Shown piece after piece: positions 4,673 through 26,804 of a stretch of DNA of 26,804 nucleotides. Origin of the DNA: a virus. The stretch covers positions 1 through 26,804 of the IMG/VR virus record IMGVR_UViG_3300029448_000291. One strand, written 5' to 3'. Numbering within the stretch: the first letter of the stretch is position 1; every line of letters begins with the position of its first letter. Position numbers and translations under genes: made by a program. The notes beneath the pieces were generated by a model. The model searched no databases and was not told the DNA's origin. It saw only the letters and a list, made by a program, of their open reading frames with translations.

Positions 4673-7600
4673 CTATCGTCTTGGAAATAATTCAGTTGGA
4701 ACATCTATCGAAGAATCTGTTCCATATCTATTTGCTCTTGTTATTCGTAATTGGTCGATATAACCTTTTAAACTTCTTGACCCACCAGATTGACCATAAC
4801 TACCGAAGTAAAAATCAGATGATACCGAAAGTGTGTAATCCGATGCTGTTCCTAAAGAACTTACTGTCGTGCCTGTGACTGCACCAGCATAAAGACGTAG
4901 AAGATTGCTTGAATTTCTAGTAAGTGCTAAGTAATACCATTGCCCTGATGACAAAGATTGAGCAACTTGAATTTGTGGAGTAGGTTCATTACCAACTTCC
5001 CACTCATTGCCATACCTTTGAATAATAAAACTTCCAGTATTTCTAACTATTGATTGATTTGTTGTATTTGGATTGTTTAAAAAGTAAACAAAAAATTCAA
5101 TAGTAAATTCTCCAGTTAATATGTTTACTGATTCTTGATTCATTCGTGTTCTGAGCGTTGTACCCTCGTCAAAAAATAAACTTCCCAAACCATTCTTTGA
5201 CCTTGACGAAGAAACCATAACTGTTTTTGAATTGTTGCCAGAATAATCTTGTTCAAAGTTACTAAACGTCATTCTTCCGCTTTGATCGTAAATACCAGCG
5301 TTATCAAAGTTATATAACATTTTTACGTTTGCTTGATTTCTAACTTCAGAACTCAGGGTTGCAGGACTTGTTCTTGGTATAAAATTTTCTGTGTAAACTG
5401 GTTCATTGCGAGTGAATCTTAGATCACAAAAATATCCATCTAATGAATAACCCCAACTACCAAAGTATTTATTCATTAAATAATTTGTATATGCACTACC
5501 AGAAGCCCATCCTTGTGTCCAGTTTGTTTGTTCATCAACTTTAACTCCGTTTCTGAACATTCTCAGAGTTTTGTTGTTTTCTAAATCATGCGTAATAGCA
5601 TAATGAATCCACTCCCCAACTTTCGCACTCTCATTGTCTTGTACATTACTTCCATGTCCAGATGATGGCGAATGGTCAAGTGCTAAAATTCCTGATGTAC
5701 TTAAATATCTTAATGACCATAAACTACCATCTTGTTCCCAATGTCGTTTCCACCCTGTTGGGTAAGTTTCTATGTACACCCAGTATTCAAAGCAAAAACT
5801 ATGGGTGTTCATCATGTCGAATTCATCAAAATTTCTATTTTGAATTTGAACACCATCATTTCCCCCATCAAAACTTATTGAGCCACCATGATTTTCCTTA
5901 CTGTAAGGAAAATTTTGTGAATCAATATTAAAAGGAGATTCAAACAAACATTTTGGGTGTCCACTTTTTATAAATAAATCTTTTTTTCCGTATGTTGCGT
6001 TGTTTATTAATCGGTTTGATTGGAACCCTAAGAACACAGTTTTTGAATCACTTTCAAGTGGACTTGTTGGAACAGTAACTGATGAAACTCCTGATCCTTT
6101 TTTTACCCTAAGATTTGATATGTAACCCTTAAAGTCATTGTTGCCTAAAGTATAACCAGACACTCCTATTACTGGTCGATCAGTATCTACAACATAACTT
6201 GCTGAATCTGAATAGTCAGAACCTTCTTGGCTACCATCAAGAAATAATCTGGTTGTTCCAGAAAGTCTTGATAAACAAACGTGATACCAACGTCCAACTG
6301 CTAGAGCAGTTGAACCAGTAATCATTGTTGTACCAGTATTAAAAATAATCAAAGTATTATTACTCTGAATCCTTATTCTTAATTTGTTACTGCCAGCACC
6401 TGACCGACTATCATACAAATCTTGAATTGAATCAACGATATTCAAACGTATAAACATTTCAATTTGAAAGTCGCTAGTACCAAAAGCAAAATCATCCCCA
6501 GACAACTTTACATAGTAATTATCTGTTGCACCTAAATAGAGTGACCAATATCCGTCAGGTAAATAAGGGCTGAAACTTGATAAACTTACCTCTTCATTAA
6601 AATATTTAACTTGTCTGCTTGGAAATGCTTTGTCGATCATTCCTGTGTTTCTTGCACCGCCAGAAAACTGACAGGTTAACATTTCGGTATTTGAATCTGC
6701 TGTTCTTGGAATTGTTGGAACTCTATCTAATCCTGATGCCGATTCAACTTTTACATCTGCAATATGACCTTGAAACTCATCTCCATAATTAGTGTAAGAA
6801 TTTCCACCTATACCAAAAATTGTTCGTGAGATGTTGTCGCTATAAGTAAATGAACCAGCTTGTTTACCATTCATCTTGACATAACAAGTCGTACCTTTTC
6901 GCCTTAATTGGATGAAGTTCCAATTAAATTCATTAGCCATAATACTTCCAGCATTTAATTGATAACCAGCCGTGTACATGACTTGATAGCCAGTAGCATT
7001 TACTCCAAATCCAAATGCACCAGCAACACTCTCATTTGAACCCCTAAATGAAATAACGTAATCATTACTTGCAAAGGCTTGTCCATAAATCCAAAGACTA
7101 ATTTGAAAATCCCCAGTACCAATAGCATTTACTAAGTGTGCTTGTGCGTGACTACCTACTGCTCCAGTGTTATACATACTTCCGTCATTTACATCTCTTC
7201 TTGTATAATCTTCTCCATTTATTATCTTCCCACCCATGCCTGAATGGGCAGTACAGTAATAGTTTAAATCTGGTGTACTTGTAGTAGGTTTGTATTCTAA
7301 GTAAGCACCAGATTGACCTTGTGTTCCTGACACAGTTACATTTGTTGAATATATAGAACCATCTGGAACAGAAGAAAATGGAACAGTTGTTGTTCCAGTT
7401 GTTGGCGTTGCTCTTTCTTCCAAAGGTTTATTTAGTCCAGAGTTATCCTGATTTAAACTTGAACTCTGACAACAAAGTAAAACTGTCATTGCATGAGGTT
7501 GTGTTGGAGTTGTTGGCGGTGTGTATGTTGTTCCGTCTGGATATTTACAGTGACCATTTATAATATGGAAATTTGAAATGCTACCGACAAACGCTGAAGA

Positions 7601-10423
7601 TGTAAATGCACCAGTTTGTCCAATCGCAAAATATTCACTTGGTTCTGCATTGTAGTCGTCTGTTGCTGTTTGTCTTTGAACACCCCCTTGATAAATCCGT
7701 ACAGTCCCACTCTGTCGAACAACTGCAACGTGAGTCCATGTATTCTGTGCAAGTGCTACTCCTGATGTCGCTATAGCACCGCCATCAGAATAAATAACAA
7801 CATATTCGTTTGCATCTTTATAAATCTGAAAACTTGTACTTGCACCCGCTCCGTTGCTAGGTGCATCTCCACAAAGACATTTTAATCCTGTTGTTGTTGG
7901 ATAAACCCAAAACTCAACTGTGTAGTCATTGTGTGAGAAATGGAAATCAGGATGGTGTGATGTTAATAAACCCTCTGTTCCATCAAATGCCGTAGCATAA
8001 TAACCATCTTGTTTTGAGTGACTGCCATCTATTGTTTCTGATAATTTAAATGGGTGTGTTGCAGTGGTTGAATCACTTAAGTCAAAACGATACGTTACTC
8101 CTGACATATGTGCCAATGTCTTACTTGCAACCGATTCATTATTAAATAAAAATTTATTCCCACCAGCAATACTTGCAACAGTCACTTTTATTGTTTCTCT
8201 TGTAACAACTTCTGTAGCTGTTGGTTCTGAGAATGGAATACTTGTACTGGAAAATGGTTCATCAACTTTTGCAATTATATGTGGAGAAGATGAATTATCT
8301 TTTGTTACTCCATAGGATTGACACGTTAATAAACCTGTATTCGTAACTGCTGTTAGTGGTGTAGTTGGAACAGTAATTGAAGTGTTGGCAACTCCGTAAA
8401 TGTCAGTTCCTTTAACAACTCTAACATTAGAAATACAGCCATTAAAAGCACCAGAGGTTGAAGAGTATGAACCAATCAGAACATTACCAGAAGTTGACCC
8501 TATAGTCGTAACACCAGAATACCCTGTCCAGTTACCTGACTTAGTAGAAACTCTTGTGCCATTTAACCAAAGAGAAACATTATTACTTCCATCTCGTCCT
8601 AAAGCAACGTGATACCATTTGCCAGTTGTAATTACATCATTACTAGTTTTTACAACATCAACACCGCTTATTAATGTTAAATATTTATTTGTTACGTTAA
8701 TTTGAAAATAAATTTGATGTGTGCCGTTTGTTGGAAATGAGAGAATAACTGGACTTTCTCCATCAGCAACAATCGTATCTGCTTTAAACCAAAACTCTAC
8801 AGTCAAAGCACCATCAAGCACAATTGCAGATGTCGGAGTAACTGCTAAATTATTACCATTCGTTCCCACAAAATCAGTTGAAAAATATCTATCTGGTCTA
8901 GCCAGTAAATCATTGTCAGAACGATAAGGATTAAAAGCATTTGTAATTGCATCTGGTTCTGTGCCATTGGCTGTTATCGTGTGTTGACTTGCTGAATTAT
9001 CAATTATGGTTGTGGATTGTAAACATAACAATCCTGTACTTGATGTATTCTCCAATGGCAAAGTCGGAACTGTAGAAGTTGTTATTCCAACACCTTTTTG
9101 TACTCTAAGATTAGACATAAAAAATGGCATCTGTCCTTCTGAGCCATGATTACAAATATCTAAATTCCCCGCTGTTCCATTAAAGTTTGTTGAGTTACTT
9201 ACTGATTTTTGCAACGCTCCATCTACAAATAATCGTATTGTTCCTGATGCCCTTGAACATTCCATAAAATGCCATCTGTTACGAGTCGGAGCAGATGTCG
9301 TAAATATATCTGCATTGTTATGTGCCGATTGCACATGAATAAGTCCGTTACTATCATGTGAGATAGCAAAATATCCTGTTGTACCACCTGTCATGCAGTA
9401 AATTCCACCACCTGTCTTGTATTGTATGTATATCCAAAATGAAACTGTAAAATCCCCTGTGCCAAACTGAAAGTCTGCATGATTAGGAATGCTAAGATAA
9501 TCATTTCCATCGAAATGAACTGAATGGTATCCATCAGGGGAAAACAATCTACTGTTGATATTAAATGGATTAAATGTTCTTACGGCTGGACTAAAAGCTT
9601 GTGTAGAAAAAACTTCATAAGATGGTGCTAATTCAATTGATTGGTCGTTAAAATTATTTCCCAGACACGCTAATATTTTTGTTCCTGTTTCATGCGTCAG
9701 AGGTTTGCTTGGCATAGAACCATCTGATATTGTTCCTACTCGCCACCGCACATTCGACAAGAAACCATTTAAAGCCTGTGACGATTCTCCGTTATAACCA
9801 ATTCTCCATTCTACTGAAGCATTAATAGTCACATTAGTCCAAGAAGATGATGCAACTGATTTGCCATCAGCAAACAACTCCACGTTACCATCGGTTTTTC
9901 TAAAACATAAGAATGTCCATTTTTTTTCTGGTAACCTGTAATCGCCAGAGTACCAAGACTGTGTTCCAAACCCATTTGTGTGTATGTGAAGTCGTCCAGT
10001 AGGTTCTAAAATGAACATGAATTTTGCTGTTCCACCTCCACCCCCAGAAAAACCAAATATCCCAGAAGTGCCAGATTTAATTTTCCAGTAAATGAAACAT
10101 TCAAAAGAAAAATCCCCAGCTTGTGGATATAAATATGTTTGACTAGGAATTTTTATATATGGAACAGTCTCTCCAAACTCAACCGAATAGTATCCATTTT
10201 TCTCGTAAGGACTAAACCCTGTTCCTACAGGTCGTGTATCACTTTCATCGCCATTAGAACCATGAGCATCTATTCTGGTCACTTTACTAGAAGCATCATT
10301 AAAAACATTATAAGAAACTTCATCTTCGGAATGATGTGCTTCAGGTTGAATCAATAAAGATACATCTTTAAAGTTTGGGTCTGTATCGTCTGACTTTGGA
10401 GCAGAACCTTTAATTAATGGCAT
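4673..10423 (-). CDS. Giant virion surface protein with eight LamG/ConA-like domains and a split cupredoxin-like domain
   Basis: 1916 residues. Eight LamG-like (concanavalin A-like) units lie at residues ~73-232, 296-446, 509-675, 804-965, 1078-1235, 1289-1448, 1512-1680 and 1740-1905. Each has an opening DGYxSxxFDG, a strand of the type GTGDFTVSFWIY, a middle W-x-H/F-x-A/E-x-x-R, L(F/Y)xDG, and a closing (I)SNxRVxKG followed by VPTxPL and LLxCQS. LamG domains usually bind glycans or proteins, so cell-surface adhesion or capsid/tail decoration is likely. Residues ~740-803 and ~1018-1070 resemble the two halves of a cupredoxin (H790; C1057, H1060, M1063) with LamG unit 4 between them. The ribosome site AGGA lies 7-8 nt before ATG. 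It is the largest gene here and sits between the small fibre genes and the tail chaperone. Confidence 0.85.
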   Translation of the reverse strand: MPLIKGSAPKSDDTDPNFKDVSLLIQPEAHHSEDEVSYNVFNDASSKVTRIDAHGSNGDESDTRPVGTGFSPYEKNGYYSVEFGETVPYIKIPSQTYLYPQAGDFSFECFIYWKIKSGTSGIFGFSGGGGGTAKFMFILEPTGRLHIHTNGFGTQSWYSGDYRLPEKKWTFLCFRKTDGNVELFADGKSVASSSWTNVTINASVEWRIGYNGESSQALNGFLSNVRWRVGTISDGSMPSKPLTHETGTKILACLGNNFNDQSIELAPSYEVFSTQAFSPAVRTFNPFNINSRLFSPDGYHSVHFDGNDYLSIPNHADFQFGTGDFTVSFWIYIQYKTGGGIYCMTGGTTGYFAISHDSNGLIHVQSAHNNADIFTTSAPTRNRWHFMECSRASGTIRLFVDGALQKSVSNSTNFNGTAGNLDICNHGSEGQMPFFMSNLRVQKGVGITTSTVPTLPLENTSSTGLLCLQSTTIIDNSASQHTITANGTEPDAITNAFNPYRSDNDLLARPDRYFSTDFVGTNGNNLAVTPTSAIVLDGALTVEFWFKADTIVADGESPVILSFPTNGTHQIYFQINVTNKYLTLISGVDVVKTSNDVITTGKWYHVALGRDGSNNVSLWLNGTRVSTKSGNWTGYSGVTTIGSTSGNVLIGSYSSTSGAFNGCISNVRVVKGTDIYGVANTSITVPTTPLTAVTNTGLLTCQSYGVTKDNSSSPHIIAKVDEPFSSTSIPFSEPTATEVVTRETIKVTVASIAGGNKFLFNNESVASKTLAHMSGVTYRFDLSDSTTATHPFKLSETIDGSHSKQDGYYATAFDGTEGLLTSHHPDFHFSHNDYTVEFWVYPTTTGLKCLCGDAPSNGAGASTSFQIYKDANEYVVIYSDGGAIATSGVALAQNTWTHVAVVRQSGTVRIYQGGVQRQTATDDYNAEPSEYFAIGQTGAFTSSAFVGSISNFHIINGHCKYPDGTTYTPPTTPTQPHAMTVLLCCQSSSLNQDNSGLNKPLEERATPTTGTTTVPFSSVPDGSIYSTNVTVSGTQGQSGAYLEYKPTTSTPDLNYYCTAHSGMGGKIINGEDYTRRDVNDGSMYNTGAVGSHAQAHLVNAIGTGDFQISLWIYGQAFASNDYVISFRGSNESVAGAFGFGVNATGYQVMYTAGYQLNAGSIMANEFNWNFIQLRRKGTTCYVKMNGKQAGSFTYSDNISRTIFGIGGNSYTNYGDEFQGHIADVKVESASGLDRVPTIPRTADSNTEMLTCQFSGGARNTGMIDKAFPSRQVKYFNEEVSLSSFSPYLPDGYWSLYLGATDNYYVKLSGDDFAFGTSDFQIEMFIRLNIVDSIQDLYDSRSGAGSNKLRIRIQSNNTLIIFNTGTTMITGSTALAVGRWYHVCLSRLSGTTRLFLDGSQEGSDYSDSASYVVDTDRPVIGVSGYTLGNNDFKGYISNLRVKKGSGVSSVTVPTSPLESDSKTVFLGFQSNRLINNATYGKKDLFIKSGHPKCLFESPFNIDSQNFPYSKENHGGSISFDGGNDGVQIQNRNFDEFDMMNTHSFCFEYWVYIETYPTGWKRHWEQDGSLWSLRYLSTSGILALDHSPSSGHGSNVQDNESAKVGEWIHYAITHDLENNKTLRMFRNGVKVDEQTNWTQGWASGSAYTNYLMNKYFGSWGYSLDGYFCDLRFTRNEPVYTENFIPRTSPATLSSEVRNQANVKMLYNFDNAGIYDQSGRMTFSNFEQDYSGNNSKTVMVSSSRSKNGLGSLFFDEGTTLRTRMNQESVNILTGEFTIEFFVYFLNNPNTTNQSIVRNTGSFIIQRYGNEWEVGNEPTPQIQVAQSLSSGQWYYLALTRNSSNLLRLYAGAVTGTTVSSLGTASDYTLSVSSDFYFGSYGQSGGSRSLKGYIDQLRITRANRYGTDSSIDVPTELFPRR
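4709..10207 (-). repeat. Eight-copy LamG domain array (protein-level repeat)
   Basis: The coding sequence repeats at a domain period of about 160-290 residues, including linkers. Copies are strongly diverged at DNA level, so this is an old duplication series rather than a recent tandem repeat. Linkers also repeat: most units end with a VPTxPL stretch, a CQS/CLQS motif and DNS or NN before the next DGY start. Confidence 0.8.
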
Positions 10424-14568: not shown

Positions 14569-14580
14569 TTTTTTCTCTCA

Positions 14581-20780: not shown

Positions 20781-20941
20781 GGCATCTTCAGTACAATTGC
20801 AATGAGCAATAAGAGCATAGCACCAGAGCTACCAATCAAAATCATTTCAACTCTTTGAATCCTTGCTAGTGTTTCTCTCCATCTTTCCTCGCACACTGCT
20901 TCATGGCTTGTCAATCTTTTGTCCAATTCATGTAAGTCCAT
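20777..20941 (-). CDS. Small XhlA/holin-accessory-like membrane protein (54 aa)
   Basis: The 54 residues begin MDLHELDKRLTSHEAVCEER, continue WRETLARIQRVEMILIGSSG and end in a membrane helix (AMLLLLIAIVLKMP). An amphipathic N-terminal helix followed by one C-terminal membrane span resembles haemolysin XhlA-type phage proteins, which attach to the membrane and assist lysis. The ATG overlaps the terminase stop (TAATG) and the TGA overlaps the next GTG start (GTGA), so the gene is coupled on both sides and is very likely translated despite its size. Confidence 0.7.
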   Translation of the reverse strand: MDLHELDKRLTSHEAVCEERWRETLARIQRVEMILIGSSGAMLLLLIAIVLKMP

Positions 20942-22389
20942 TATGTCCATCCTACGGCTGATTTATTTTCTATTGATCTAGCTCTCGTTTGAGCTAGTCC
21001 ATTACGAATTCTTAAACATGCATATTGAAGAGCATCTTGAATATGCGACATATCGTCTTTTAAAGGACGATCACGATAACGTGCAGTACCAGTTACTTTT
21101 AATCTTTGATACTGATACTTACCATTCATACCTTTCCTTAACACCTTGCAACTCTTATCTAATAAGAATGCTGGCTTACCATCGTTCATTCTTGTTAAAA
21201 AGAATGCGACAGCTTCTCTTCTTGGTAACCAATCGTTAGTACTGGCAATCTCTGTTGGAATGCCAATCTCAAATAACTCTTGGACACAAGACCTTTCATC
21301 TACTTGACTTCGTTGATTACCACTTGGATCACAAGTAGACACACGACTATAACCACCATATTTATTTATTAGTATTGGTCTGACAATGTCACTTGCAAAT
21401 TGTCTGATACCCATATCTTCACTAACAATCTCTTCCAGAATTTGTATCTGCCCTCTATTGGTTTGTTGCATAATTACGCAACTCGGAGTTAATCCAAAAT
21501 CCCAACCAAGAACAATTGGTAAACCTCTTATTGGTTCCAATGGAACTTCAGAAGTATGAATCTTATCTTTGAACTCTGGAAAGACAGGCTTACCGCTTGA
21601 GGTAGAACCATAGTTTCCTAATACAAAAACATTGATCCAGTTCTCATCTTTAGCCCCTAGCATATTTAGATAGTAGTTATAACCATTCGGTAGGTTGTCT
21701 ATGTTTTCGGCATCAGGATTTGGTTTGTATTCATCGCCATCTTTGTACAAGCCACCAGCTTGTCTAAAAAATTTCCATCCCTTTGGGGTTTCTTCTTCCG
21801 CAATCCGAAAGTAATACGAATCGTCATCTGGGGGATTGGTATCTAAAAGCACACAAGGATTGTGAAAACCACCGTCTGCTTTTCTTGGGTATCTGCCAAC
21901 ACGTTGGGTTGCAATATCAAATATTTCTTTTGGTACTTCTGAACACTCGTTGATCCAGCAAATGGAAACTTCTAATGATCTCATTCGACCAGTATCAGAA
22001 ACCTTATCCAATGCAATAAACCAAACCTCTAAATGTAAAGCTGTGCCGTCACCAATATCAGAAATGTTCATGGTACTGGTAATCGGAGTATCCCATTTAA
22101 TAGGAGCTATGTTATGTGGGAACCACTGTTCCCACGTTTTAATAGTAGTAGACTTTAACTCAGGATATGTATTCCGAATAACTAAAGCTCTACACTTGCG
22201 TACACCGTCAGGAGAGGGCGGTTGTTGTAAAGCTAGGTTCACTATCTCAACACAACAAGCAGACGATTTACCAGAGCCTACGCATCCCATTAAGCCTTTA
22301 ACAAATCCTTTAGCTTTATGAAACTTTCTGGCTACCTTGCCAGAAGGAGTGTAGTTAATAACCTCATCCAATGGATAATTCCTTTTCAA
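20941..22389 (-). CDS. terL: Terminase large subunit
   Basis: 482 residues. The ATPase Walker A is G-C-V-G-S-G-K-S at 35-42. Walker B with the catalytic glutamate is VSICWINE at 141-148, and the coupling motif LDTNPP is at 182-187. The nuclease domain shows GWDFG (D297), TCDPSG (D354) and DDMSHIQDALQY (D445/D446/D452). The protein translocates DNA into the procapsid through the portal and cuts the concatemer. The start is TTG at 22389: the frame is closed by TAA at 22399-22401 and no ATG lies near the N-terminus. The ribosome site is weak, so translation is probably coupled to the overlapping upstream gene (26 nt overlap). Confidence 0.93.
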   Translation of the reverse strand: MKRNYPLDEVINYTPSGKVARKFHKAKGFVKGLMGCVGSGKSSACCVEIVNLALQQPPSPDGVRKCRALVIRNTYPELKSTTIKTWEQWFPHNIAPIKWDTPITSTMNISDIGDGTALHLEVWFIALDKVSDTGRMRSLEVSICWINECSEVPKEIFDIATQRVGRYPRKADGGFHNPCVLLDTNPPDDDSYYFRIAEEETPKGWKFFRQAGGLYKDGDEYKPNPDAENIDNLPNGYNYYLNMLGAKDENWINVFVLGNYGSTSSGKPVFPEFKDKIHTSEVPLEPIRGLPIVLGWDFGLTPSCVIMQQTNRGQIQILEEIVSEDMGIRQFASDIVRPILINKYGGYSRVSTCDPSGNQRSQVDERSCVQELFEIGIPTEIASTNDWLPRREAVAFFLTRMNDGKPAFLLDKSCKVLRKGMNGKYQYQRLKVTGTARYRDRPLKDDMSHIQDALQYACLRIRNGLAQTRARSIENKSAVGWT

Positions 22390-22720: not shown

Positions 22721-22955
22721 CACCATCTACTCCAGCTACGTTCAAATTAAAAGTAATACCTTGCGAGGTATGTTCCATTTTTACGTCTGATAAGTTCGGT
22801 AACGACTTATCAAGCAATATCTTGATAGCAGTGATCTGGGAGCTTTGTAGCTCAACATCGCCACCTATGTGACCCATGAGTCTATTGATCAGTTGAGAAG
22901 CTTGTATCTTCTTTCTGATCTCCTCAGAGTGTCTTGGGTTTAATCTTCGTGCCAT
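22668..22955 (-). CDS. terS: Terminase small subunit
   Basis: 95 residues from ATG 22955, chosen because AGGA lies 7-8 nt upstream; an in-frame ATG at 23006 would add a hydrophobic 17-residue stretch without a ribosome site. The pattern RHSEEIRKKIQASQLINRLM, then GHIGGDVELQSSQITAIKIL and LDKSLPNLSDVKM resembles small terminases, with an N-terminal helical DNA-binding section. The C-terminus is very acidic (DGDEEESEKENDEEG). It should recognise the packaging start and load terL. It is the first gene of the leftward operon. Confidence 0.7.
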   Translation of the reverse strand: MARRLNPRHSEEIRKKIQASQLINRLMGHIGGDVELQSSQITAIKILLDKSLPNLSDVKMEHTSQGITFNLNVAGVDGDEEESEKENDEEGHLPS

Positions 22956-22988
22956 ATCATTTCCTGTTAAAAATATAAATAAGATGTG

Positions 22989-23020
22989 TGGGTTTGCCCT
23001 ATACATGTATATAAGAACCC
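22989..23020. promoter_or_regulatory. Palindromic operator/promoter candidate upstream of terS
   Basis: A perfect 12-bp palindrome TATACATGTATA (23000-23011) is flanked by an outer inverted pair GGGTT (22990-22994) / AACCC (23016-23020). Reading leftward the site ends ATGTATAGGGC, which resembles the end of T7-type promoters (CTATAGGG). It lies about 45 nt before terS, where a late promoter or operator would be expected. Its activity is inferred. Confidence 0.4.
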
Positions 23021-23030
23021 CCCAGCCATG

Positions 23031-23103
23031 CCACGGTTGTCCAGCGTGGGTAGGGTTGTAGCACTTCGAGGGTTTTCACTGCCCTCGCTTGGTCTTTAAC
23101 CAA
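23031..23103 (+). other. Three consecutive hairpins in the divergent control region
   Basis: Stem 1 is CCACG (23031-23035) / CGTGG (23045-23049). Stem 2 is CGAGGG (23067-23072) / CCCTCG (23082-23087). Stem 3 is TTGGT (23089-23093) / ACCAA (23099-23103) with a five-base loop. They sit in a stretch visibly richer in G+C than its surroundings, with no credible ORF on either strand. Confidence 0.5.
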
Positions 23104-23123
23104 TCGATGTCAGAGCTACGCAT

Positions 23124-23219
23124 TCAGTATCCGTGAGCATTGGCTTACGTTCAACGATCTTGCGTGGTCTGAGGGCAATACCAAAGGCAATAGAAGTGTC
23201 TGTTGGTCACGGATGCTGA
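23124..23219 (+). ncRNA. Candidate structured RNA: 13-bp helix closing a 70-nt loop
   Basis: TCAGTATCCGTGA (23124-23136) pairs with TCACGGATGCTGA (23207-23219) over 13 positions with a single U-G wobble if the plus strand is transcribed; on the minus strand that position would be an A-C mismatch. The 70-nt loop contains a short CCAA/TTGG stem and two copies of GGCAATA. It does not fold as a tRNA. This region and the hairpins before it form most of a roughly 400-nt gene-free stretch. Confidence 0.35.
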
Positions 23220-23244
23220 TCCAATACCAGAATCCCACCTCTAT

Positions 23245-23300
23245 AATCTCTCCCTTTTTTCTCTCGTAAAGGGGGGATTCTCTATCTCCCTTTTAACTTC
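23245..23300 (+). promoter_or_regulatory. Element E, copy 1 (Y-arm / G-run / Y-arm)
   Basis: A pyrimidine tract (CTCTCCCTTTTTTCTCTC) is followed by AAAGGGGGGATT and then CTCTATCTCCC and TTTTAACTTC. AAAGGGGGGATT can pair with the upstream tract or, through GGGGGA/TCTCCC, with the downstream tract. It lies before the first rightward gene. A TATAAT at 23242-23247 touches its left end but has no good -35. Confidence 0.6.
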
Positions 23301-23374
23301 ATAAGTGACTGAATCAAGGTTGCTTTTTCAACTGACTACTCTTCTGAAGTCTTTTGGCTTGATTGCTGAATTAA

Positions 23375-23410
23375 CACACGCAAAGTCGCTGGATTACCCA
23401 TATGCGTGTG
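23375..23410 (+). promoter_or_regulatory. Inverted repeat before the two-TM membrane gene
   Basis: CACACGC (23375-23381) and GCGTGTG (23404-23410) form a seven-base-pair stem with a 22-nt loop. It covers the ATG at 23402, another reason to prefer the start at 23438. Confidence 0.4.
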
Positions 23411-23437
23411 GCTTCTCCTATCTACGAAAGGTATAGC

Positions 23438-23737
23438 ATGAACGATAGAACTCACTTTCAATTCCTCGTAGCCTTATGTGGCTACGGATTGCAATGCATA
23501 ACGATGATTTGGTTTGCTTACTTCTTATCATCTCCTTTTATCTTTAGCATCCTTGACTACAGTCATTGGATTCAGTACTGCATGGCTTTCTTAGCCTTTG
23601 CATTTCCTTTTGCTTTTGGTTTAGCTGGAGTTGCTGGCATCTACTACGTCCTTAAGGATTGGGAAGACTGTCATAGCTTTCGTTGTTATCGGAAAGCTCG
23701 TGCGACAGCTAAACAAAAACTCTTAAGACTTTACTAG
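23438..23737 (+). CDS. Two-TM small membrane protein, unknown function
   Basis: 99 residues from ATG 23438, with AAAGG 7 nt upstream; an in-frame ATG at 23402 has no ribosome site. Two long hydrophobic segments lie at residues ~8-36 (FLVALCGYGLQCITMIWFAY) and ~45-72 (IQYCMAFLAFAFPFAFGLAG), followed by a basic cytoplasmic-type tail (RCYRKARATAKQKLLRLY). It is the first rightward gene, bracketed by element E copies 1 and 2. It could be an early membrane-acting phage protein such as superinfection exclusion or host membrane modification. That is a guess from topology and position only. Confidence 0.55.
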   Translation: MNDRTHFQFLVALCGYGLQCITMIWFAYFLSSPFIFSILDYSHWIQYCMAFLAFAFPFAFGLAGVAGIYYVLKDWEDCHSFRCYRKARATAKQKLLRLY

Positions 23738-23741
23738 TTCT

Positions 23742-23797
23742 ATTTCCTCCTCTTTTTCTTCTGAAAGGGGAGGAATTCTTTCTCCCTTCTTAACTTC
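23742..23797 (+). promoter_or_regulatory. Element E, copy 2 (hairpin and leader before the 174-aa gene)
   Basis: TTCCTCCTCTTT (23744-23755) pairs with AAAGGGGAGGAA (23764-23775) over twelve positions with one wobble. CTCCCTT (23782-23788) can instead pair with AAGGGGAG, bulging one G. The end TTAACTTCA is shared with copy 1. It lies just after the stop of the two-TM gene and before the GGAGG of the next gene, so it may act as terminator, attenuator or leader. Confidence 0.6.
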
Positions 23798-23814
23798 ACT
23801 TTGGAGGTCATACT

Positions 23815-24339
23815 ATGACTGTTATCCTTCCTGTTGAGTCCTCAAAGCAAGAGGACATTCCTATGGCTACTCAACCTAATGAGTCAGCTCCTGTAACCGA
23901 GAATCAGCAAAGATTTCTCGCTGACCTAGTAGCTCGTGGTCAGGTAAAACAAGCCACTGTTGATGGCTTGAAAACCAGAGCGGAAGCATCTGCTTTGTTA
24001 ACTGCTCTACAGGCTAGAGCTAACACCTCTCAACTGCCTAAAGCTTTGGTTTTTAAGCTTCAACAGTTCGGTGTTCGTTTAACACCTGTTCAGTTACCTT
24101 CTCAATCTTCACCTGTTCATTTGTCTACTGAACACTCATCAAGATTTCAGATGCAACAAGCTGGCAGAGATGCTATTGAAGCTGTTAACTCTGGAGCTGA
24201 TGCGAAGGGAGTTCTTCTTACCTTGATCGAGCAAACGATTAAGATTTCTTCAACCACCGCAGAGTTCAACAAACTTCTGCCTGATTCCGACCACGGATCA
24301 GTTAACACAGCTTCTATGTTCGGAGACAAAGTCTCTTGA
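23815..24339 (+). CDS. Unknown protein, Gln/Ser/Ala-rich (174 aa)
   Basis: 174 residues with GGAGG 8 nt before ATG. The N-terminal ~25 residues look unstructured (SSKQEDIPMATQPNESAPV). Residues ~28-70 (TENQQRFLADLVARGQVKQA, then TVDGLKTRAEASALLTALQA) resemble the small helical motif T-x-x-Q-x-x-F-L-x-x-L ... S/T-x-x-E-A-S-x-L-I-x-x-L found in many DNA-related and unknown proteins. The rest is helical (RFQMQQAGRDAIEAVNSG, GVLLTLIEQTIKISSTTAEF). I recognise no enzyme. A strong hairpin follows the gene. Confidence 0.6.
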   Translation: MTVILPVESSKQEDIPMATQPNESAPVTENQQRFLADLVARGQVKQATVDGLKTRAEASALLTALQARANTSQLPKALVFKLQQFGVRLTPVQLPSQSSPVHLSTEHSSRFQMQQAGRDAIEAVNSGADAKGVLLTLIEQTIKISSTTAEFNKLLPDSDHGSVNTASMFGDKVS

Positions 24340-24350
24340 GCATCGGAGCT

Positions 24351-24386
24351 GAGAAGCAAGGGCAACTGAAAGGTTGCCCAAGCTTC
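24351..24386 (+). terminator. Strong hairpin after the 174-aa gene
   Basis: GAAGC, AA, GGGCAAC, loop TGAAAG, GTTGCCC, AA, GCTTC gives 7 bp plus 5 bp around a symmetrical AA/AA internal loop. No T-run follows, so it may be a factor-dependent terminator or an RNA-stabilising end rather than a classical intrinsic terminator. Confidence 0.6.
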
Positions 24387-24395
24387 AGCCTTCCA

Positions 24396-24455
24396 GCATT
24401 TGGTAGCTAAGACTATGCACACAGCAATTAGTAGCTAGGACTATGCACATAAAAT
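24396..24455 (+). promoter_or_regulatory. Element B, copies 1 and 2 in tandem (core GACTATGCACA)
   Basis: Two copies start at 24396 and 24424, a 28-nt period. Shared parts are TAGCTA and GACTATGCACA; copy 2 also has GCAATTAGT upstream. The pair lies after a strong hairpin and 65 nt before the next operon. The AATTAG...CTATG layout is loosely like promoters of single-subunit phage RNA polymerases; a promoter role is inferred. Confidence 0.55.
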
Positions 24456-24475
24456 TGCATGTTACATCCAGTGTG

Positions 24476-24507
24476 TTACTATCAATAACAGTTACTAACA
24501 ATAACAA
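24476..24507 (+). repeat. Tandem 16-nt repeat in the leader of the 80-aa gene
   Basis: TTACTATCAATAACAG is followed directly by TTACTAACAATAACAA (14 of 16 identical). It ends 12 nt before the start codon. It could be a protein-binding site or just leader sequence. Confidence 0.55.
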
Positions 24508-24519
24508 TCTAGGATTAAA

Positions 24520-24762
24520 ATGAAGAAACCACTTAATAACATATTGCCCAAAGATATACGCAAATCATTAGAAAGCAAGTATGTACATTACCTCTTAGGT
24601 TCTCTCACTGAAGCAGAGAGAACTAAGTCAATCATTAAAACTATCTGTACTTGTGTTCGCAACTGGAATGATTCCTTTCTAATCAACCAATGTTTACAAA
24701 GAAACATACCTGTAGTGATCTTACCTGAAGTAAAACCCATAACCGTTAAGGAGGAACAATGA
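24520..24762 (+). CDS. Small unknown protein (80 aa), first gene of an early operon
   Basis: 80 residues (KKPLNNILPKDIRKSLESKY, VHYLLGSLTEAERTKSIIKT, then CTCVRNWNDSFLINQCLQRN and IPVVILPEVKPITVKEEQ). The N-terminal half is basic and helical. I recognise no family. TAGGA lies 6 nt before ATG. The gene overlaps the ART-like gene by ATGA. It follows element B copies 1-2 and the tandem 16-nt repeat. Confidence 0.55.
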   Translation: MKKPLNNILPKDIRKSLESKYVHYLLGSLTEAERTKSIIKTICTCVRNWNDSFLINQCLQRNIPVVILPEVKPITVKEEQ

Positions 24763-25316
24763 AAGATACCTTAAATGAAAAGCATCTGTTTACCAAGCAT
24801 CAGGCTTGGATTAGCGGAATAGCTAATCGGAGATACCGTGCTGTATCTCTAGAAGGTAAAGGAACTGGTGTGGCATCAATGGGTGCTGGTCTTTACTTAA
24901 CTAGCGAAGAACAAGCAAAAAGTTTTGCTCTCTCTTTCTATGGTAACAACGCATTAATTGAAGAGTATGCAGTTACTCATCCGTTAAAGCTAATCGATTA
25001 CTACTCTAAACTTTTTCAAGCATGGAGAAAAGAATGGTACATGAAATATGCCATTAGTCATATGACTGAGATAGACGGAGAGTATTACTTAGAAATCGAT
25101 GAGTATCCAGCAAAGAATGCTCCGCATTATATTCGTGATGGTTACGGCAAATTCTTAACTAACAAGATGGAAGCAACTATCTACTTAGATGGTGTTGCAA
25201 ATCGTAACCCTCTATTCGGTATCTGTCTAATCAACCCACAAAACTACGAGTTAATAAACACAGTTGAAGTAGATGCACCTAAAACCAAAGTTTTATCACT
25301 AAAGGAGTTGATATGA
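24759..25316 (+). CDS. Possible ADP-ribosyltransferase-like protein (185 aa)
   Basis: 185 residues with AAGGAGGAACA before ATG. Residues 26-58 read Y-R-A-V-S, then GVASMGAGLYLTSEEQAKSF. This resembles ADP-ribosyltransferase folds, where an R or H strand is followed by G-x-G-(I/L)-Y-(F/L) and a helix containing A-x-x-(Y/F)-A/C. The next strand, ALIEEYAVTHPLKLID, matches the V-x-L-x-x-P/G-x-x-x-x-L/D strand after it. R27, Y46 and T48 would be NAD-binding; E138 (MEATIYLDG) is a candidate catalytic glutamate but is uncertain. If real, it could modify host proteins early in infection, as T4 Alt/ModA/ModB do. The match is by eye only. Confidence 0.45.
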   Translation: MKDTLNEKHLFTKHQAWISGIANRRYRAVSLEGKGTGVASMGAGLYLTSEEQAKSFALSFYGNNALIEEYAVTHPLKLIDYYSKLFQAWRKEWYMKYAISHMTEIDGEYYLEIDEYPAKNAPHYIRDGYGKFLTNKMEATIYLDGVANRNPLFGICLINPQNYELINTVEVDAPKTKVLSLKELI

Positions 25317-25393
25317 GCATTGCTCACAAACGCAGAAAGAAACTGATCAAACGTGGTCAGTGGAAATTTAAACCTCAACCAAAGGGAGTATGA
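25313..25393 (+). CDS. Micro-gene: 26-residue highly basic peptide
   Basis: The ATG at 25313 overlaps the TGA of the ART-like gene (ATGA), and AAGGAG precedes it by 5 nt. The TGA at 25391-25393 is one base before the ATG of the next gene. The peptide begins MSIAHKRRKKLIKRGQWKFK and ends PQPKGV, with a large excess of Lys/Arg. Coupling on both sides and the strong ribosome site argue for translation. A nucleic-acid-binding or translation-coupling role is possible. Confidence 0.5.
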   Translation: MSIAHKRRKKLIKRGQWKFKPQPKGV

Positions 25394-25394
25394 A

Positions 25395-25787
25395 ATGGAA
25401 GACCTTGACGTACAAACATTAAACAGTAACTACGACCTAAATTCTTTTATAGGTTCTGCAACCTTTACAACTGTGGGTGGTATGTACTCAAAGTACATAG
25501 TATCTGAAGGTGTAAAACATCTTATGACCGAAGCAAATGCAACATGGTTAGTTACAGATGCATTAGCTGTTCATTCTATAGAGCTAACTCAGAAAGCTGG
25601 TTGCAGACTCGTTAGATGTGATGTGACAGTTACTGATTCAAAAGCTCAATTCACAATGGCTAATGATGACAATGAAAAAGTTTACGAAAAAGACTACAGC
25701 TTCACAGACCTTGCTGATGGATTTTATCAATTCTTCATCGGTTGGAATGGCGAAGGCTGGACTCTTTACCTACCATCTGAGCATTAA
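25395..25787 (+). CDS. DUF6876-like protein (130 aa)
   Basis: 130 residues from ATG 25395 with GGGAG 7 nt upstream; an upstream in-frame GTG at 25353 lies inside the micro-gene and is less likely. The pattern LNSFIGSATFTTVGGMYSKY, then IVSEGVKHLMTEANATWLVT, DALAVHSIE and a final GWTLYLPSEH resembles the DUF6876 family (F-x-G-T ... T-x-G-V-K-x-L-x-x-x-A-x-x-x-W-L ... L-x-L-P-S-E), small proteins of phages and plasmids with unknown function. No catalytic motif is visible. A strong hairpin follows. Confidence 0.55.
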   Translation: MEDLDVQTLNSNYDLNSFIGSATFTTVGGMYSKYIVSEGVKHLMTEANATWLVTDALAVHSIELTQKAGCRLVRCDVTVTDSKAQFTMANDDNEKVYEKDYSFTDLADGFYQFFIGWNGEGWTLYLPSEH

Positions 25788-25795
25788 CTTTAACT

Positions 25796-25825
25796 CAAGG
25801 TAACGGCTACCAAGCCGTTGCCTTG
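25796..25825 (+). terminator. Strong 13-bp hairpin after the DUF6876-like gene
   Basis: CAAGGTAACGGCT (25796-25808), loop ACCA, AGCCGTTGCCTTG (25813-25825) pairs completely with one U-G wobble. It is followed by TATCAACATTC rather than a T-run. It ends the operon before element B copy 3. Confidence 0.65.
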
Positions 25826-25845
25826 TATCAACATTCATAGTTGTA

Positions 25846-25885
25846 GCAATTAGTTGCGATGACTATGCACACAAAATAAGGAAAG
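25846..25885 (+). promoter_or_regulatory. Element B, copy 3, plus shared ribosome-site block
   Basis: The 32-nt box at 25846-25877 matches copy 2 at 28 of 32 positions, including GCAATTAGT, GACTATGCACA and AAAAT. It runs into ACAAAATAAGGAAAG (25871-25885), which recurs exactly at 26312-26326 before the next gene. The position is right after a strong hairpin and right before a new operon. Confidence 0.6.
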
Positions 25886-25887
25886 TC

Positions 25888-26340
25888 ATGTCACCTAAAA
25901 TGATACCTGTTGTCTCGCCTGAATCAATTAATGACGGCAAAGTACGCAAACCAATTATGCAGTTTGATGCTGAATTTTTAGTCAGTATGTTTGATGAGTT
26001 TGCTCACAAAAAATACAGTCTAGGTTTTGATTACTGGATAGAAACTCTAACAACTGAAGACAAGATAGAGATCATAACCAAAGGCGAAAATCTTAGTGAT
26101 TCAATTATAGCTTTTATCGAATGGAATAAAAAACAAGTAGAAATGGATTCGATAAGAATGGAAACTCAATGTGTATATGAAGCTGATCCAGAAATGTATG
26201 CTCATCAGGAATCAAAACAAAATTTATTTTCGATGGAAGATGAAAAATACATTCAGGAATGTGCTGAGTTTATTACTACTAAATGGGTTGGCTTTGTTCC
26301 ATCAACTAAAAACAAAATAAGGAAAGATAATGCCAATTGA
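25888..26340 (+). CDS. Unknown acidic protein (150 aa)
   Basis: 150 residues with AAGGA 8 nt before ATG. The sequence is acidic and helical (FDAEFLVSMFDEFAHKKYSL, then GFDYWIETLTTEDKIEIITK, MEDEKYIQECAEFITTKWVG) and ends with a basic tail (STKNKIRKDNAN). No family or motif is recognised. It is the first gene after element B copy 3, and its end overlaps the DUF6891-like gene by 11 nt, so the two are co-expressed. Confidence 0.55.
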   Translation: MSPKMIPVVSPESINDGKVRKPIMQFDAEFLVSMFDEFAHKKYSLGFDYWIETLTTEDKIEIITKGENLSDSIIAFIEWNKKQVEMDSIRMETQCVYEADPEMYAHQESKQNLFSMEDEKYIQECAEFITTKWVGFVPSTKNKIRKDNAN

Positions 26341-26743
26341 CCTTCGCATAGATGCACAGCCCTTGAAGAAAGCTCTCAAGGAAATACAAACCGTAACACA
26401 TAGTAAAGATAACGACATGAAACCTATCGTTACTAAAACAAACTATCAATGTTGCCAAAGCTGTGGTTGTAGTTTTATCTCTCATTATTATGGTGAGGAT
26501 TGCAACTACATTTTTTATCACAACCAAAGCAATGAATCACTCAAAGCTTATGGTTGCACTACGTTGTATCACACGATTGAACCTAACAATCGTAGATTCG
26601 TTGTTGATACTCTTCGCAAACATGGTTGCACCGTTAACTGGGATGGAGATCACCACGAAGCCATTGAAGTTATGGTTCCAAAAGCTAAAGAAATACTAAA
26701 GCCTGAACATTGGGTAACAGAAATTAAAAATGAGAAGTACTAA
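26330..26743 (+). CDS. DUF6891-like small protein (137 aa)
   Basis: 137 residues. The ribosome block ACAAAATAAGGAAAG lies just before ATG. The pattern QCCQSCGCSF, then CNYIFYHNQSNESLKAYGCT, RRFVVDTLRKHGCTVNWDGD and HHEAIEVMV resembles DUF6891-type proteins (a C-C-x-x-C-G motif, FYHxQ, a helix, then G-x-x-V-x-W-D-G-D-xx-x-x-I-x-V). The four N-terminal cysteines (CC, SC, C) could hold a metal, but the spacing is not a standard zinc finger. The biochemical role is unknown. Element E copy 3 follows. Confidence 0.55.
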   Translation: MPIDLRIDAQPLKKALKEIQTVTHSKDNDMKPIVTKTNYQCCQSCGCSFISHYYGEDCNYIFYHNQSNESLKAYGCTTLYHTIEPNNRRFVVDTLRKHGCTVNWDGDHHEAIEVMVPKAKEILKPEHWVTEIKNEKY

Positions 26744-26748
26744 ATCAT

Positions 26749-26803
26749 AATCCCCCTCTTTTCTTTATATAGGGGGGGTATCTCTTTCTCCCCCTAAACA
26801 CCA
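26749..26803 (+). promoter_or_regulatory. Element E, copy 3
   Basis: CCCCCTCTTTTCTTT is followed by ATAGGGGGGGTAT and then CTCTTTCTCCCCCT. The G-run can pair with CCCCCTCT on the left or CCCCCT on the right. It starts after the stop of the DUF6891-like gene and is cut off by the window edge, so its downstream partner gene is unseen. Confidence 0.55.
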
Positions 26804-26804
26804 T

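Follow-up and report, generated by a model that had tools for sequence, protein, structure and literature searches.

The window analysed here is a stretch of 26,804 nucleotides (nt), bases 1 to 26,804 of the 28,977-base viral record IMGVR_UViG_3300029448_000291, which is a fragment of a podovirus-like phage. Its rightward part contains three copies (E1, E2 and E3) of an element of about 50 nt in which a purine arm (B) can pair either with the pyrimidine arm before it (A) or with the pyrimidine tail after it (A′), and across related phages both pairings are specific to the individual element. Judged by this comparison, the element probably acts as a control device built into the RNA, either a switch or a dimmer. 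That it acts in cis as a two-state RNA leader of the attenuator type, A:B against B:A′, is put forward tentatively, as a substantial possibility that falls a little short of being probable.

Three copies of an element with two exclusive hairpins

An earlier note on this DNA had described three copies with a common order of tracts, each able to form two exclusive hairpins. All three were verified on the plus strand, each running from A through a loop to B and A′ (arms defined by a gapless-stem scan and RNAfold). E1 (23249 to 23295), in the leader of the open reading frame (ORF) from 23402, has A at 23249-23258, B at 23268-23277 and A′ at about 23284-23295; E2 (23744 to 23788) has A at 23744-23756, B at 23763-23775 and A′ at 23779-23788; and E3 (26752 to 26796) has A at 26752-26759, B at 26771-26778 and A′ at 26788-26796. 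Computed folding gave two exclusive hairpins with a common arm in every copy, the arrangement expected of an attenuator. The right hairpins join 23267-23278 with 23284-23295 in E1, 23766-23775 with 23779-23788 in E2 and 26770-26778 with 26788-26796 in E3. In a two-state fold the right hairpin was favoured in E1 (left −12.0, right −15.0 kcal/mol) and E3 (−13.9 and −15.7 kcal/mol), and the left in E2 (−19.0 and −12.5 kcal/mol).

A scan of the window returned four hits on the plus strand (E1, E2, E3 and a palindrome at 14572) and none on the minus strand, compared with a mean of 0.05 and a maximum of one in 60 dinucleotide-preserving shuffles of the window scanned on both strands. A simpler pattern gave five overlapping matches at two of the three sites (0.05 expected). 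The three copies are thus real, chance being excluded by the shuffles. The hit at 14572 is a false pyrimidine-purine-pyrimidine (Y-R-Y) match, a strong palindromic hairpin in the structural region that is unrelated to the elements; in the related locus L005 the matching late region has a hairpin at about 15421, 5′ of the same structural gene.

The end of B in E2 lies 39 nt from the ATG at 23815. The G-run of B had been read as a Shine-Dalgarno (SD)-like sequence, which does not hold for these genes, since their true SDs sit downstream (e.g., GGAGG before the ATG at 23815). A run of 10 N at record bases 26805-26814 (L003 3806-3815) follows E3 directly, just outside the window, so that the downstream context of E3 is broken and the following gene and its leader are uncertain.

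The element class in relatives and its pairing with the tail

Relatives were sought with the terminase large subunit (20941 to 22389, minus strand, opposite to the elements) as query; 80 of 268 loci from viral contigs were kept, and more were added via three further terminase queries. The search of related contigs that the earlier note had suggested did recover the elements. The nearest large relative, L005 (terminase 91% identical), carries two copies arranged as in the window. One of them, the counterpart of E2, precedes the homologue of the gene behind E2, and a counterpart of E1 lies at the corresponding place in L004/L005; similar elements were also found in L006, L007 and L009.

To define a class, hairpins of at least six pairs, with a loop of 3 to 12 nt and a stacking energy of −12 or lower, were collected where they lay at most 130 nt 5′ of an SD and start codon, using a crude gene caller, from non-redundant loci (106 minus those duplicating the window). 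Redundancy among the elements was removed at 85% identity and not by phylogeny. In class members purines made up 70% or more of the B arm and 40% or less of a 25-nt tail, with no B:A′ pairing required. On this definition 60 of 308 upstream-of-gene hairpins on the strand opposite the terminase (early) belonged to the class, against 2 of 203 on the terminase strand (late, structural genes), which bears out the claimed location ahead of rightward early genes. Several loci cut by contig coordinates (L084-L110) were not oriented to the terminase, so that the strand label may be the wrong way round in a few cases; none of these loci supplied any of the 60. Among early hairpins with a pyrimidine tail the B arm was purine in 60 and pyrimidine in 21; the late strand had 2 and 8. 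When B:A′ pairing was made a condition in a separate scan, 87 hits lay opposite the terminase and 13 on its strand; five of these 13 came from the window itself, whose terminase is on the minus strand. A control in which sequences were reversed, not complemented (82 hits versus 100), was dropped as uninformative, because a Y-R-Y element read backwards stays Y-R-Y.

From B to the start codon the median distance was 55 nt (at most 52 nt in 27/60). Stem sequence and loop were highly variable over the class. Among 20 elements looked at, the genes behind them included Amidoligase_2-type proteins and a small early-protein family, for which no convincing Pfam or PHROG match was obtained. The window's member of this family, a 174-amino-acid protein encoded at 23815 to 24339 (plus strand) and preceded by E2, was likewise without a match in Pfam and PHROG searches; proteins weakly similar to it come after elements in seven other loci.

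Pairing of B with its tail was assessed by exchanging tails between elements. Over the 60 elements the mean B:A′ energy was −11.48 kcal/mol with the own tail and −10.21 kcal/mol with swapped tails (standard deviation 0.27; 0/5,000), with shuffled tails giving −10.23 kcal/mol. The observed value was reached in 4 of 5,000 swaps within genome-GC quartiles, in none of 5,000 within tail-GC strata or within tail-C strata, and in 39 of 5,000 inside the same locus. With one element per locus (n = 36) the swap z averaged −3.6 (range, −5.25 to −2.15). Ordinary hairpins of the same phages (248 early, 201 late) showed no own-tail effect, and swapping the upstream arm among 21 hairpins whose 5′ arm is purine gave no significant result (1,377/5,000). 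In half of the elements (30/60) A:B is prolonged by an outer stem of at least three pairs that uses tail bases. This outer stem is element-specific within the class (3/5,000) and not in ordinary hairpins (1,267/5,000 and 1,158/5,000); the B:A′ signal was present in elements with it (10/5,000) and without it (0/5,000). As B:A′ and the outer stem are both element-specific, the tail appears to serve two exclusive structures, an arrangement known from attenuators.

A natural control was provided by the hairpin CCCCT(T)CAC..GTGAA(A)GGGG, which was scanned in all viral contigs with the tails read afterwards; 39 of 76 places were left after de-duplication and were assigned to two groups by contig name. 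A B:A′ energy of −11.0 or better was found in 12/12 places on known terminase-relative contigs and in 2/27 on other contigs, so the hairpin elsewhere carries no complementary tail along. What the comparison shows is thus the location, the strand, the predicted A:B pairing and the element-specific complementarity of B:A′ and of the outer stem, and it suggests that both folds are kept by selection.

Possible mechanism and rival explanations

As an attenuator, the element would work as follows. A:B would form first as the RNA emerges, with the outer stem tying up tail bases as well in half of the elements, and would let polymerase read through to the downstream gene. Alternatively B, often with loop bases (added loop bases are used in 37/60), would pair with A′ to give a hairpin that tends to precede U-rich sequence, a form like that of an intrinsic terminator, and would stop or pause polymerase when A is blocked or absent; A might be blocked by a protein or ribosome, by a small RNA, or through a 5′ end located within the element. 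Where A′ ends, C falls from 0.54 to 0.17 and T rises from 0.37 to 0.66, and T numbers 4.74 in the 8 nt that follow, where 3.67 are expected from the rest (n = 38, drawn from 41 elements whose B:A′ energy was −10 or better). At least five T occur in the 8 nt after A′ in 31/60 elements, against 11/60 after A:B; the terminator hairpin and U-tract are clearest, by eye, in L016, L031, L079 and L081. Since a start codon within 52 nt in 27/60 leaves little room for a promoter, the gene must be reached by read-through. A:B beats B:A′ by stacking energy in 59/60 and RNAfold finds B:tail dominant in 9/60, so the default is probably A:B with read-through, though the right hairpin wins in E1 and E3.

Several observations weigh against this model. 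The same superiority of A:B in 59/60 means that the terminator fold needs A to be unseated. U-tracts are imperfect (at least six T in the 8 nt after A′ in 16/60, and none in E3). The gain from the own tail is modest, about 1.3 kcal/mol, and was measured on related sequences. Of the covariation that had been proposed as a check, complementarity to the own tail beyond composition was upheld by the swap tests, but a comparison by eye of the window with L005 showed A′ conserved in its sequence, without compensation, and two pairs of B:A′ in E1 lost; A′ was poorly aligned in MAFFT alignments A3 and A4. Ribosome release at an upstream stop codon is not supported as the trigger and was rejected, because stop codons are not specially placed (3 to 14 nt from A in 15/31 versus 31/87); E1 has no evident leader ORF ending ahead of A. 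A further difficulty is a sub-family of 13 elements (in L021, L035, L043, L044, L045, L056, L058, L062, L065, L067, L115 and L134; hairpin CCCCTCAC..GTGAAGGGG) in which an extra A in B bulges from A:B; in many of them another A bulges further down the stem. This bulge recalls protein-binding hairpins and may be a protein site. An own-A-count test gave 17/19, six of the 19 being antisense readings, with 11/13 real elements fitting (misfits, L035 and L062), and of 16 in the natural-control set 11 came out better and 2 worse, with 3 ties; it is not relied on because of the antisense readings (6/19), the misfits (2/13) and the possible protein site.

Other explanations were weighed against the attenuator. 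For the RNA-processing site that the earlier note had named beside it, the comparison speaks neither for nor against. One, which we regard as unlikely though worth serious thought, is a 5′ untranslated region (UTR) module for mRNA stability or translation, in which A:B would cap or protect the message, perhaps after loop cleavage, and the tail would be a ribosome standby or S1-binding tract just 5′ of the SD. The close SD, the pyrimidine-rich tail, the TTTAAC-like stretch that recurs 5′ of the SD and the hairpin and T-run found 17 to 26 nt ahead of the ATG in many early genes are consistent with it, but such a module alone leaves the match of A′ to its own B unexplained. It is less probable again that A:B is a protein-binding hairpin (an operator or a nut-like antitermination site) for a phage protein, with the tail as accessory. 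Stem and loop vary greatly, unlike a fixed protein site, and the bulged A of the sub-family, which would suit such a site, as would the second bulged A of many, also pairs in B:A′. This explanation does draw on GC-rich loci in which a canonical terminator lies 40 to 85 nt after the element, and 21 to 24 nt before the start codon where one was called (L033 twice, L081, L166 and L082, ahead of early genes including amidoligase; L156 and L158 have the terminator and no start call), as if the element aided polymerase; this order suggests that an element helping polymerase through would fit too.

That the elements are common intrinsic terminators, imperfect and with a tail rich in C and U, and that their second pairing is a by-product of purine-pyrimidine composition, is a doubtful account of the class. 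Such terminators come closest in the AT-rich L006, L007 and L009, where tracts such as TCTCTTTTTTC follow A:B almost directly. Against them stand the T-richness after A′ rather than A:B, the survival of the own-tail signal in composition-controlled swaps and the scant room for promoters of the downstream genes; a plain intrinsic terminator was rejected, at least six T in the 8 nt after A:B being found in 5/60, although some AT-rich relatives come closer. The Y-R-Y triplex (or H-DNA) that the earlier note had also considered fits the order of tracts and has a weak parallel-orientation signal (reached in 104/5,000 permutations). It is nevertheless very improbable: the antiparallel signal is stronger (0/5,000), several arms depart from homopurine/homopyrimidine sequence (e.g., GGGGGGCGGG/TCCGCTTTCC), and the strand bias relative to genes is strict.

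The attenuator model has partial parallels in known systems. The trp, pyr and ribosomal-protein leaders are attenuators with terminator/antiterminator pairs, and the elements resemble them in having an arm common to two exclusive leader hairpins, one of which tends to precede a U-rich stretch; they differ in their small size, in occurring several times per genome, in the stronger A:B of nearly all members and in that no leader peptide or aptamer was seen in them. T4-type phages carry intergenic promoter/stem-loop cassettes, likewise repeated stem-loops ahead of early genes, but in the element no promoter was recognized, it has a second exclusive pairing and the phages are unrelated. HK022 put and lambda nut are antitermination sites, also phage RNA hairpins in early operons, and some of the present loci lie upstream of a terminator; unlike in put and nut, stem and loop vary freely, and conserved boxA/boxB or a two-hairpin put was not seen by eye (no put/nut model search was made beyond Rfam). 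The T7 gene 10 leader has a hairpin before the SD, and the elements share with it a GGG/CCC-armed hairpin and a UUUAACUUU stretch before the SD. In contrast to T7, no T7-type RNA polymerase was found in relatives of the window phage, and a T7-like promoter/leader was rejected: PF00940 was not found in 13/13 relatives and was found in the control record W01, though records may be fragments, and the polymerase was also not found in 21/21, there without a positive control match. Titles and abstract beginnings, in a literature coverage mostly outside subscription journals, held no description of such an element. Amidoligase genes are mentioned for OM43 phages (PMC10580990), and in the passages of that article available to us terminators, promoters and hairpins are unmentioned.

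A bolder extension, which we think unlikely, would be that the elements form a novel family of small RNA switches with two states, in several copies per genome, that coordinates early genes (including amidoligase and the small protein family) across a large uncultured podovirus-like clade, one phage or host signal unseating A everywhere and turning the set down together. If true, this would be a compact phage RNA switch for which neither an aptamer nor a leader peptide nor a phage polymerase is obvious, reused across a widespread uncultured group; it would show how phages apparently relying on host RNA polymerase shape early expression and offer a minimal model for RNA hairpins that compete under selection. 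Precise predictions follow from the comparative pattern and can be checked in vitro without the phage.

Genome context and minor observations

The minus strand of the window encodes the terminase large subunit, the portal (head-tail adaptor) and the major head protein. Rightward short genes, mostly of unassigned function, follow from 23402 on, the first being an ORF of 111 amino acids (23402 to 23737, plus strand) 3′ of E1. The divergent gene sets are separated by a GC-rich, strongly foldable non-coding block (23009-23240) without an Rfam match; a trans-acting RNA from this block was rejected, as it is not conserved even in L005. At the gathering score Rfam gave no match in the window and only tRNAs in seven relatives, and the best weak match in 22900-26804 (E = 0.51) lay on the opposite strand.

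A search of genome contigs added 14 distant relatives, including one contig of a metagenome-assembled genome labelled Limnohabitans at 58%, too thin a basis for naming a host. In the named phages BcepC6B, Ss1, Hodr, MEP301, VA-RY-3 and Y3 (terminase 37 to 42% identical), the element class was not found in the stretches scanned (BcepC6B and Ss1 whole, the remaining four each over more than half of their length); the two scan hits altogether were both in BcepC6B, within annotated genes. The scanned parts of MEP401 and MEP402 had no element hits, and a stretch of Manatee Spring podovirus that encodes amidoligase had four, by eye none class-shaped.

Intergenic repeats at 24379-24451 and 25829-25873 have GACTATGCACA in common and are possibly promoters or operators. 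The early proteins at 25353-25787 and 26330-26743 match DUF6876 and DUF6891, and a 1,916-amino-acid protein at 4673-10423 has eight laminin-G-like stretches. In relatives such as L166, L043, L067 and L081, tRNA genes lie left of the terminase.

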